Positions 34,437 to 37,790 of a stretch of 64,000 bases of DNA are shown in pieces. Source of the stretch: Marinicella meishanensis (lineage in GTDB: Bacteria > Pseudomonadota > Gammaproteobacteria > Xanthomonadales > Marinicellaceae). How positions within the stretch are numbered: position 1 is the first letter of the stretch; each line of letters opens with the position of its first letter. The DNA is taken from assembly GCF_019931145.1 (NCBI RefSeq), contig NZ_JAIOUV010000002.1, positions 310,001-374,000 of the forward strand, written 5' to 3'. A model generated the notes under the pieces. The model saw only the letters and a program-made list of their open reading frames with translations, did not search any database and was not told where the DNA came from. The position numbers and the translations under genes are program-made.

Positions 34437-34633
34437 GATACGCTCCTCTATTTGGTTGTGCCATTCCAGATGTTCAGGCACCGCGCTGGCGGCACCCAAC
34501 ATGCAGTTGGCAAGTAATCGACCCCGACAAAGCGCTTGTGCTGACAAATTTCTGCCCAACCACCTTGAACCCTCAAGAACAATGATACAATGACTGGTGA
34601 CTTTTGAGAATCTGTTTTTTGAGCACCCCACCC

Positions 34634-35116
34634 ATGTCATTGATCCGATCCATCACTTTGTTCACCCCCCTGTTGCTGCTGTTGGCCGCTTGTTCCGGTG
34701 AGCCACCCATGGACAAAAAAACCCAATTGATGACCACCCTACAAAACCTGGAGGCGGCGATTGAAAAAAAAGGCGTGGATGAATTTTTCAGCCAGGTCAG
34801 TGATGATTTCAAAGTGTCCGAACGCGGCTGGAACAAAAAAGACGCCGAACGCTTTTTGCGCATTCGCTTAATGAAAAACAAAACCGTGCACGTGCATCAA
34901 ATGGTCAAACGCATCGACTGGCAGAATGACGGTGATCAACAAGCCGAAGTGGAAGTGGTGGCGGCCATGGCCGGCACCGACATCAGTTTGGATGAACTGC
35001 CGTCCTTTCGTGGCGACATGGCCAAATTCGTGGTCACTTTCAACAAAATTGACGACCAATACATCATCACCCACGCCAGCTGGCAACGCGCCACACCCGC
35101 CGATTTCGTGTTCTGA
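34634..35116 (+). CDS. Putative lipoprotein with NTF2/nuclear-transport-like character
   Basis: 160 residues from the ATG at 34634. The signal ends in lipobox LAAC. The mature part has an N-terminal helix pair (LMTTLQNLEAAIEKKGVDEF), then a DDFKVSERGWNKKDAERFL segment and two beta-rich stretches. This resembles SnoaL/DUF4440-like cone folds that bind small ligands, a weak fold guess. It stands alone and divergent from the DUF2782 gene. Confidence 0.6.
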   Translation: MSLIRSITLFTPLLLLLAACSGEPPMDKKTQLMTTLQNLEAAIEKKGVDEFFSQVSDDFKVSERGWNKKDAERFLRIRLMKNKTVHVHQMVKRIDWQNDGDQQAEVEVVAAMAGTDISLDELPSFRGDMAKFVVTFNKIDDQYIITHASWQRATPADFVF

Positions 35117-35130
35117 ACCCTAAACCCAAC

Positions 35131-35214
35131 ATTCCAATCAAAATTCCTTCGTCATCCTCGGGCTTAACCCTGAAATCCAATTTAAAAAACGCTGATGATT
35201 GCTGTGATTGGAAT
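35131..35214. repeat. 84-base element with terminal inverted repeats and REP-like core
   Basis: ATTCCAATCA (35131-35140) and TGATTGGAAT (35205-35214) are perfect 10-base inverted ends. Between them 35150-35178 resembles a degenerate REP sequence (GTCATCC ... GGGCTTAACCC ... AATCC). It could be a small non-autonomous element or a long hairpin. It lies between a lipoprotein gene and the hemD stop, next to the anomalous hemD tail. Confidence 0.45.
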
Positions 35215-35265
35215 TGAGATTAATTCCTAAACCAGACCAACTGGCATAAGCTCAATGAAATCGTC

Positions 35266-36192
35266 TTAACCTTTTTTTATAGAAGAAATTTGATCTGTTT
35301 CTGACCCATCCCAATAACACTTTTTGCATCTTCCTTTGGCGAAATTGTGATCACAATTTTCATGACCATACAGCCAATGCGCACATTCAGGGCATAACAG
35401 AGTCATCTTGGATGATTGTTCATAAAATTCACTTTGGCATTCATCACAAACAGCAATGCGATTTAGAGACTCTTTGGCAGCCAACACCGCCTGACACATG
35501 TGGGCATCACGCGGACTGGCAGCCTGCTTGATGACACTGAATCCCATCTGTTCGGCCGCCTGAGCGATGCGTTTGGAACCCACCACCAACGGCCAAGTCA
35601 ACACCATCGCCCACAAGGATTCGGACAGACTCGCCTGCAACTGCTGCAAAATACCCACACTGGTGGCGGTCAGCACCGGGGCATTTGAGGGGTCATCAAA
35701 GGCAGGCCTGAGCGCTGCCTCCACCGGCAATGGAGCCAATAAATAGGTGTTGACTTGGTGGTAGCTGATGGCATCGGCCATGCAATGTTGGCGAATGGCT
35801 TCCCGGCCACCCAAAGTGGTGAGGATTTTCACCGACTGCGGTTGAGCCGCTTGCAACAATTCGATCACCCCTTCAGAGTTCATCGCTGGGTGGCAGTCAA
35901 TGGGGTGAGAGAACCGTTGTTGCCAAGCCTGGACCACCGCCGGCCCCACTGCGATGACCCGTGTGGCTGCAGGTGGTTGCCAGTCGGGTGCCAGTTGCAG
36001 GGCATGGGTCATGGCATGCACACTGAGGATCACCCACACATCGGCCGGCAAGCGCAACCACTCGGCCCGCACAGATGGGTTGGTCACCACGTCGAAGCAC
36101 GGGGCCTGCACCGCTTGCAGGCCGGCGGCTTGGTACACGGCGGCGGCTTGGGCGACCACCGGCTGGGGCCGGGTGATGATGACGGTGGTCAT
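35266..36192 (-). CDS. hemD: Uroporphyrinogen-III synthase with C-terminal zinc-ribbon extension
   Basis: 308 residues, about 55-65 longer than usual. Residues 1-240 are HemD-like (ITRPQP start, VIAVGPAVVQAW, TATSVGILQQL, VVGSKRIAQAAEQMG) and should cyclise hydroxymethylbilane to uroporphyrinogen III. Residues about 245-308 form a separate cysteine-rich module: CDEC (249/252), CPEC (267/270), HENCDH (277-282) and CKKC (289/292), resembling a double zinc ribbon. DNA coding for the tail (about 35266-35463) is visibly AT-richer than the rest, which suggests a recent fusion. It follows hemC by 3 bases. The tail's function is unknown; either a standalone zinc-ribbon gene was captured or the hemD stop was lost. 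Confidence 0.85.
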   Translation of the reverse strand: MTTVIITRPQPVVAQAAAVYQAAGLQAVQAPCFDVVTNPSVRAEWLRLPADVWVILSVHAMTHALQLAPDWQPPAATRVIAVGPAVVQAWQQRFSHPIDCHPAMNSEGVIELLQAAQPQSVKILTTLGGREAIRQHCMADAISYHQVNTYLLAPLPVEAALRPAFDDPSNAPVLTATSVGILQQLQASLSESLWAMVLTWPLVVGSKRIAQAAEQMGFSVIKQAASPRDAHMCQAVLAAKESLNRIAVCDECQSEFYEQSSKMTLLCPECAHWLYGHENCDHNFAKGRCKKCYWDGSETDQISSIKKG

Positions 36193-36195
36193 TGA

Positions 36196-37110
36196 TCAAC
36201 CAGCCATGGCCAGGATCGCGGCCGCGCCTTGGGCCTGCAAATCTTCGGCCACCACAGCACCCAGTTTTTCCGGGTCGTAGCCTTGTTGGCGGGCGGTGAT
36301 GTGGCGGCTGCCATCGGGGGCGAACACGCCAGCCCGCAGCACCAGCGAATCATCGGCCAATTGCATGGCCAACGCGCCGATGGCCACTGAACAAGAACCA
36401 CCCAGGCGTTGATTCAAGGCCCGCTCTGCACGCACACATTGCCAAGTGCGTTGATCACTCAGCGGCGCCAACAATGCGGCCAGGTCTGGGCGGTCAGCAC
36501 GGCATTCCACACCCACCGCACCTTGGGCCACAGCCGGCAACCACTGGGGTGCGGTCAGGCGACTTTTGATGCGTTCATCAAAGCCCAAACGCAACAAACC
36601 AGCAGACGCCAAAATGATGGCATCGTAGTGCCCATCATCCAGCTTTTGCAGGCGGGTGTTGACGTTGCCACGCAAGGGCTCCACCTTTAAATCGGGTCGC
36701 AGTGAGAGCAACTGGGCTTGGCGCCGGAGGCTGGATGTGCCCACCACCGCCCCGGCTGGCAGGTCGGCCAGTTGAGGGAATTGGTTGGACACCCAGGCGT
36801 CGCTTTCATCGGCCCGCTCAAACACCGCACAAATCTGAAACTCTGACGGCAAATCGGCCGGCACGTCCTTCATTGAATGCACCGCGATGTCGGCTTGTCC
36901 TGCCAGCATGGCTTGTTCCAACTCTTTCAAAAACAAACCCTTGCCGCCAATTTTATTCAACGACACTTCCAAGCGCTGGTCCCCTTCGGTGGTCATCGGC
37001 AACAACTGGGTCACATGGTCGGTCTGGGTTTCTATGAGTTCGGCCACAAAGCGGCTCTGCCACAGGGCCAAGGCTGACTCCCGGGTGGCGATGGTGATGG
37101 TTTTGTTCAT
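36196..37110 (-). CDS. hemC: Porphobilinogen deaminase (hydroxymethylbilane synthase)
   Basis: 304 residues. GTSSLRRQAQL and the cofactor-binding cysteine in LGGSCSVAIGA identify HemC, which links four porphobilinogens into hydroxymethylbilane on a dipyrromethane cofactor. It starts by ATGA overlap with algR and precedes hemD, so heme genes are driven from the algZR transcript, an arrangement also known in Pseudomonas. No anomaly seen. Confidence 0.96.
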   Translation of the reverse strand: MNKTITIATRESALALWQSRFVAELIETQTDHVTQLLPMTTEGDQRLEVSLNKIGGKGLFLKELEQAMLAGQADIAVHSMKDVPADLPSEFQICAVFERADESDAWVSNQFPQLADLPAGAVVGTSSLRRQAQLLSLRPDLKVEPLRGNVNTRLQKLDDGHYDAIILASAGLLRLGFDERIKSRLTAPQWLPAVAQGAVGVECRADRPDLAALLAPLSDQRTWQCVRAERALNQRLGGSCSVAIGALAMQLADDSLVLRAGVFAPDGSRHITARQQGYDPEKLGAVVAEDLQAQGAAAILAMAG

Positions 37111-37790
37111 AATTCCTTCAATAATTTTTTCACCGCGGGCAATTGCCGCCTGCTGATCACCGGCTGGATGGTGACATTTTCCAGCATGGCCTGGGGTGAT
37201 TGGCCGGGACTGAGGTGGATGCCTTTGAGGTATTGGGTGTTGATCAAAGCATTGCGGTGCACCCGCAAAAACACCGGGTGGCTGTTTTCGATTTCCGCCA
37301 GGCTCTGATCCAGCAACAGCGTTTGATCGCTCAAGTGGGCCGTGACGTATTTATCTTCGGCCATCAAACAAACGATGTCATTGACACTGACCATAATCAC
37401 GTCATTGCCACGCTTGACCCGTATTTTATCATGACTGCAATCCAATCCCACTTTTTCCATGGCCTGTTTCAGCCGCTCCAAAGACAAAGGCTTCATCAAG
37501 TAATCGACGGCCGACAAATCAAAAGCTTGCAAAGCAAATTCATCGTGGGCGGTGGAAAAAATGATGGGGATGCTGGGGTGCTGTTGTTTGATCAAAGCGG
37601 CGGCTTTGGTGCCACTCATTTCGGGCATTTCAATGTCCAAGAACACCAAATCGGGCAGGTGCTTGCTGACCATGGCCACCCCTTCGGCCCCATGGTTGGC
37701 CTCCAGCACTTGTTCAAACGCCAGTTGTTTCAACATCGACTTCAAGCGCATGCGGGCCAATGGTTCATCATCAACGATCAATATTTTCAT
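37107..37790 (-). CDS. algR: AlgR-type LytTR response regulator
   Basis: 227 residues. The receiver domain has VDDEPLARMRL, phosphoacceptor LVFLDIEMPEMSG and DYLMKPLS. The LytTR domain (about 130-225) has the HRNALIN motif (FLRVHRNALINTQYL). The context algZ-algR-hemC-hemD matches the Pseudomonas locus, where AlgR controls alginate, pili and virulence traits; targets here are unknown. ATGA overlaps on both sides couple it to algZ and hemC. Confidence 0.88.
   Translation of the reverse strand: MKILIVDDEPLARMRLKSMLKQLAFEQVLEANHGAEGVAMVSKHLPDLVFLDIEMPEMSGTKAAALIKQQHPSIPIIFSTAHDEFALQAFDLSAVDYLMKPLSLERLKQAMEKVGLDCSHDKIRVKRGNDVIMVSVNDIVCLMAEDKYVTAHLSDQTLLLDQSLAEIENSHPVFLRVHRNALINTQYLKGIHLSPGQSPQAMLENVTIQPVISRRQLPAVKKLLKEL

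Follow-up and report, generated by a model that had tools for sequence, protein, structure and literature searches.

Uroporphyrinogen-III synthase (HemD) is represented by the HEM4 model (PF02602), and fusions of this enzyme are known as a kind, the HemD-HemX fusion (NF005411) being an example. Small zinc ribbons have been described separately, among them the archaeal Zn-ribbon RNA-binding proteins (NF011481/PRK14890; PDB 6sw9 chain C, 6skf and 9fny) and the HVO_2753 family (NF041909), of which HVO_2753 itself binds only one zinc according to PMC11241148. A union of HemD with a zinc ribbon is contained in none of the Pfam and NCBIfam models matched here, and neither this fusion nor the tail family described below was found in literature searches. 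We report such a union in Marinicella meishanensis, in a stretch of 64,000 nucleotides that is called the window throughout.

The fused gene (35266-36192, minus strand) reads through 308 codons as one open frame without internal stop, and no frameshift restoring a HemD stop was seen, in agreement with the preliminary description of HemD and tail as one frame. Residues 1-243 (35464..36192, minus strand) form the uroporphyrinogen-III synthase part, in which PF02602 matches residues 17-233 with an E-value of 6e-17 and 62 bits against a gathering cut-off of 27.5, so that the HemD domain is intact as judged by the profile. This is the only HemD found in the window's genome, and hemC, encoding porphobilinogen deaminase, lies directly upstream (36196..37110, minus strand; gene name tested by search). 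The zinc-ribbon tail comprises the 65 residues 244-308 (35269..35463, minus strand) with a WDGS motif at 294-297, and the junction zone at about residues 234-246 (35455..35493, minus strand) contains both the ends of the congener HemD proteins and a drop in GC content. The GC content falls from 61.2% in residues 1-243 to 36.4% in the tail, and third-position GC from 71.6% to 25.8%, with the step near residues 240-245. The tail DNA had been noted before as richer in AT than the HemD part, and these values bear this out; since 8.5% of the 198-nt windows across the 64 kb are as AT-rich as the tail, however, composition is supportive and not extreme.

The tail contains eight likely metal ligands, which are predicted to be seven Cys and one His (C249, C252, C267, C270, C280, H282, C289 and C292). 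All seven Cys positions had been named correctly in the preliminary description, which also proposed H277 and H282; H282 is invariant among the 12 aligned members and likely the eighth ligand, while H277 is replaced by Tyr in 10 of the 11 other members and was given up. Fifteen columns are invariant among the 12 members (C6, E8, C9, S11, C24, C27, Y32, G33, C37, H39, C46, C49, W51, D52 and G53 in tail numbering), including the eight ligands, and every conserved ligand position is retained in the window's tail. Since these eight positions are common to the window and to 11 relatives from other genomes or records, chance is excluded as their origin. Together with WDG they define the family that we name here by its pattern CxEC-CPEC-CxH-CxxCxWDG, to which the window's tail conforms. 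Of 30 columns common to at least nine of the 11 other members, the window's tail keeps 25, and the five deviating positions may point to early decay.

Searching with the tail alone for standalone homologues gave 11 further intact relatives with 45-54% identity to the window's tail, and nine of these are standalone genes. They come from records named Cyanobacteria bacterium, Hymenobacter, Planctomycetota bacterium and Arsenicitalea, from a member of the same family as the window's genome (G031), from Acinetobacter and Subdoligranulum records, from genomes G468, G711 and G827, and from the viral contig L065. Two decayed copies, one in G111 with two stops and one in the viral contig L066 with stops just before and inside it, were left out of the alignments. 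Intact and decayed copies together span five phyla, as counted from record names and taxonomy lines; the records with cyanobacterial and planctomycete names come from metagenome bins and are possibly misassigned. Two other candidates were dropped, namely a 27-residue match inside a larger unrelated ORF of the viral contig L041 and a match over 38 residues in L010 (E 1.5e-4), which belongs to a different protein of 111 amino acids.

The family is rare. The tail was detected in 3 of 61 relatives at E-values up to 1e-3, the window's own genome included, and one of these three (G050) was a partial match that was dropped. It occurred in 2 of 369 genomes of the class, again with the own genome included and with a decayed copy as the other, and in 3 of 151 genomes of the family of G468, from which the window's genome was excluded. 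In the phylum it was present in 3 of 398 genomes including the own one, a scan in which at most 15 first-look candidates were scored per genome and misses are possible. With the window's tail, every Pfam and NCBIfam model stays below its cut-off, and the other members were compared by E-values only. Based on these observations, we suggest that the tail belongs to a new family of sporadic small zinc ribbons that carries no name in the curated libraries searched, as checked against their cut-offs for the window's tail.

To place the fusion within the genus, HemD was matched in 16 of 17 other genomes, with identities to the window's protein of 50-56% for the nine nearest and 34-40% for the other seven. 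As the preliminary description had asked whether hemD of close relatives ends near residue 242, we compared the C-termini: all 16 end at most seven residues past the position aligned to residue 243, without any Cys beyond that position, indicating that none carries the tail. The fused form is thus found in 1 of the 17 genus genomes in which HemD was found, the window's own included. Downstream of the fused ORF lies an AT-rich spacer (35117..35265, 39.6% GC), which is probably part of the inserted segment, followed by a convergent gene (34604..35116, plus strand) without a Pfam match, whose start looks lipoprotein-like to us. In several congeners hemD ends within tens of bases of what seems to be the same convergent gene, as judged by eye on the DNA, and for this reason about 350 bases of AT-rich DNA look inserted here. 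The boundaries of the insertion are approximate, the nearest HemD proteins being 50-56% identical.

The other copies of the zinc ribbon occupy diverse contexts. In G827 it makes up the C-terminal end of a protein of 260 aa that contains a GNAT acetyltransferase at residues 26-156, which is a second C-terminal fusion; only one other genome of that genus was available and it had no GNAT match, so that there is no close control for an empty site. In Subdoligranulum the zinc ribbon is fused N-terminally to DUF4241, and the record shows a row of immunity-type genes there (L051:2518-5698) with DUF1963, the zinc ribbon-DUF4241 fusion and Imm51. In G711 the zinc-ribbon gene follows tyrS at a distance of 25 nt, provided that its TTG start is correct. 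None of six other genomes of this genus, the closest of which is 99% identical in TyrS, has a copy in the stretch of DNA compared around tyrS, which gives an empty site. At the end of a contig, the Hymenobacter copy precedes a DDE transposase ORF by 22 nt, and the Acinetobacter copy is flanked by direct repeats of about 207 nt. At this Acinetobacter locus, represented by two Acinetobacter baumannii records (L050:2532-4403 and L082:915-3207), the repeats separate single exchangeable genes: DUF4126 is present in both strains, whereas one has the zinc ribbon and the other GNAT and Nudix. In the plasmid collection, 373 records match part of the repeat; 352 of these are from Acinetobacter, and in 42 the match extends over 80% or more of the query. 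None of the papers listed by literature searches showed such an array. A shared GNAT partner was considered, and the GNAT domain of G827 is distantly like the GNAT neighbouring the copy in G031 (24%, E 3e-9) and unlike that of the Acinetobacter array, which gives no firm pairing. All eight standalone copies with an upstream ORF of at least 95 aa have it on the same strand, 1-295 nt away, although opposite-strand ORFs overlap some of these upstream ORFs and the same-strand evidence is thus weak. For the ninth, from Hymenobacter, the 180 bases available contain no upstream ORF of at least 95 aa.

An inverted repeat near the gene had been taken in the preliminary description as a sign of capture. 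The repeat itself is real, with 10-nt arms at 35131-35140 and 35205-35214 (span 35131..35214), but its link to the capture is not supported, as it overlaps a degenerate copy (35119..35183) of a repeat dispersed through the genome. Partial or complete matches to this copy occur at 10 further genomic places, most of them restricted to the inner 30-40 bases (about 35146-35183); several are tandem or clustered, and the repeat was rejected as a tail-specific vehicle. Two loci of the own genome carry the dispersed palindrome in tandem or inverted pairs. At L055:1632-2577 on contig C7, two 34-nt inverted copies flank 878 bases, and at L053:1830-2733 on contig C9 there is a repeat array around the same palindrome with spacings of 82, 39 and 104 nt. 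Elsewhere in the genome, an exact direct repeat, 300 nt or more in length and with a 451-nt spacing, is found at L054:1710-2460 on contig C1, less than 1 kb from the contig end.

A phage or plasmid origin was also considered and rejected. The tail has no match in 50,697 phage records, and in five viral-contig scans the intact copy L065 was found twice and the decayed L066 once, apart from the dropped L041, while two scans were empty. Nothing in PHROGs matches the window's tail under E 0.2, and among the anti-phage models one of 12 members gives a weak match (E 0.083). The DNA from 34700 to 37200 is without near match in the plasmid collection, in which the tail itself matches two records; one of these, of 3.97 Mb, is probably a chromosome.

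A rival explanation is that two genes merely seem to be joined. If a one-base error were present, HemD would stop near residue 243 and the zinc ribbon would be a separate, overlapping and translationally coupled gene; a stop occurs in frame 1 at codon 243, the place at which the congener HemD proteins end, TTG codon 237 could start a separate tail, and the eight standalone copies with an upstream ORF follow it on the same strand. A stop at the junction in one of the two other frames is unsurprising by chance, however, and the tail frame has no ATG, GTG or TTG in codons 238-262. The only possible starts, GTG 236 and TTG 237 just before this stretch, have no clear ribosome site by eye, codons 234-252 contain no single-base run longer than 3, and the assembly consists of 15 contigs and is 98% complete. 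We consider such an error unlikely and hold that the fusion is probably genuine and recent and arose by capture. An arrival of the tail as an integron gene cassette at a secondary site is very improbable. It draws on the decayed relative in G111, which is embedded among small genes in an integron-like array (L058:1-6144). The genome of G111 has three places at which an integron integrase exceeds the cut-off, none of them on the 6-kb contig of the array. Palindromes of this array, which we read ourselves as putative attC sites, gave z values of -4.99, -4.37 and -1.92, two of the three folding far better than shuffles, whereas the 149 nt behind the window's tail show no unusual fold (z -1.15 and 0.18). 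In the window's genome, 98% complete, no integrase exceeds the TIGR02249 cut-off, and matches below it occur also in 14 of 14 control genomes; integron insertion at hemD is thus unsupported. As a separate observation, an ORF at the contig end of the array matches Y1_Tnp with 21.5 bits, slightly below the cut-off of 23.

With respect to function, the tail might be a working regulator, sensing metal or redox state or serving as a tether, and might in this way tune HemD activity or bring the enzyme close to a partner. All eight ligands are intact, and it is plausible that heme synthesis is controlled by metals or redox state. On the other side, the same domain is joined to the unrelated GNAT and DUF4241, only one of the 17 genus genomes with HemD has the tail, and no heme gene was seen beside the other copies, most of whose neighbours were not named by the search. 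A regulatory role appears improbable to us.

We favour instead the explanation that a standalone zinc-ribbon gene was captured and is now a tolerated tail on an intact HemD, to which we give a probability of about 0.72 as a whole. It is weakened by the fact that a single genome is known to carry the fusion. Capture of a standalone gene, already proposed in the preliminary description, is well supported by the nine standalone genes among the 11 relatives and by the tail-free HemD of all 16 congeners, in a family that is sporadic and mostly standalone and also occurs in the GNAT and DUF4241 fusions. A small standalone zinc-ribbon gene with AT-rich flanks would have come to the 3' end of hemD by horizontal transfer, the insertion being placed between hemD and the convergent gene, and illegitimate recombination in this convergent intergenic region would fit best as the route. 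Removal of the hemD stop would have continued the frame, so that HemD would be made with a 65-residue tail. The tail would fold on its own, bind one or two metal ions and be expressed only with HemD, whose catalysis would be unchanged. In the simplest mechanism it is probably a tolerated, still folded passenger that would keep whatever binding the free protein has.

A broader and much more tentative idea is that the zinc ribbon is a mobile promoterless gene that travels as cargo of several unrelated cassette-like systems, settles on the same strand behind host genes and sometimes fuses C-terminally, to HemD here and to GNAT in another family of the phylum, acting as a recurrent natural tagging module. 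Were this so, these loci would give a natural view of small mobile genes becoming protein domains. The proposed capture itself matters because the fusion, on an enzyme of the heme pathway, is so young that its donor and recipient can still be distinguished, and because it uncovers a small zinc-ribbon family scattered over distant phyla.

When the fused protein is compared with known systems, its HemD part agrees with PF02602 over a nearly full-length domain directly behind hemC, while the HemD-HemX model is matched only via the HemD part (residues 2-244) with 47 of 414 bits. An AlphaFold model of the tail was mediocre (pLDDT 72.7, pTM 0.53; six sequences) and no structural match was found for it (best Foldseek E 1.2; no Z of 2 in VIA-align), so that the proposed double-ribbon fold is drawn from the sequence. 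At E-values up to 0.1, NF011481 is matched by 11 of 12 members (best 1e-5) and the HVO_2753 family by eight of 12 (best 2.6e-5). The latter resembles the tail in being a small protein with four Cys pairs, but two queries from the window score 9.5 and 12.5 bits against its cut-off of 80, placing the tail outside that family, and the single zinc of HVO_2753 makes two metals in the tail uncertain. The archaeal Zn-ribbon RNA-binding proteins share about 60 residues and similarly spaced Cys pairs, and the family profile aligns with 6sw9 chain C over nearly the whole domain at E 4e-4, including a C-terminal CxxCxWxG like that of the tail family. The remote similarity to these small archaeal zinc ribbons, which are seen in ribosome structures, is a hint of RNA or ribosome binding. 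The tail nevertheless scores 19.7 bits against the NF011481 cut-off of 61 and falls outside that family as well, and its own family has C-x-H replacing one Cys pair and is bacterial and sporadic. The novelty lies less in HemD than in this family and in the fact that it has been joined to other proteins repeatedly.
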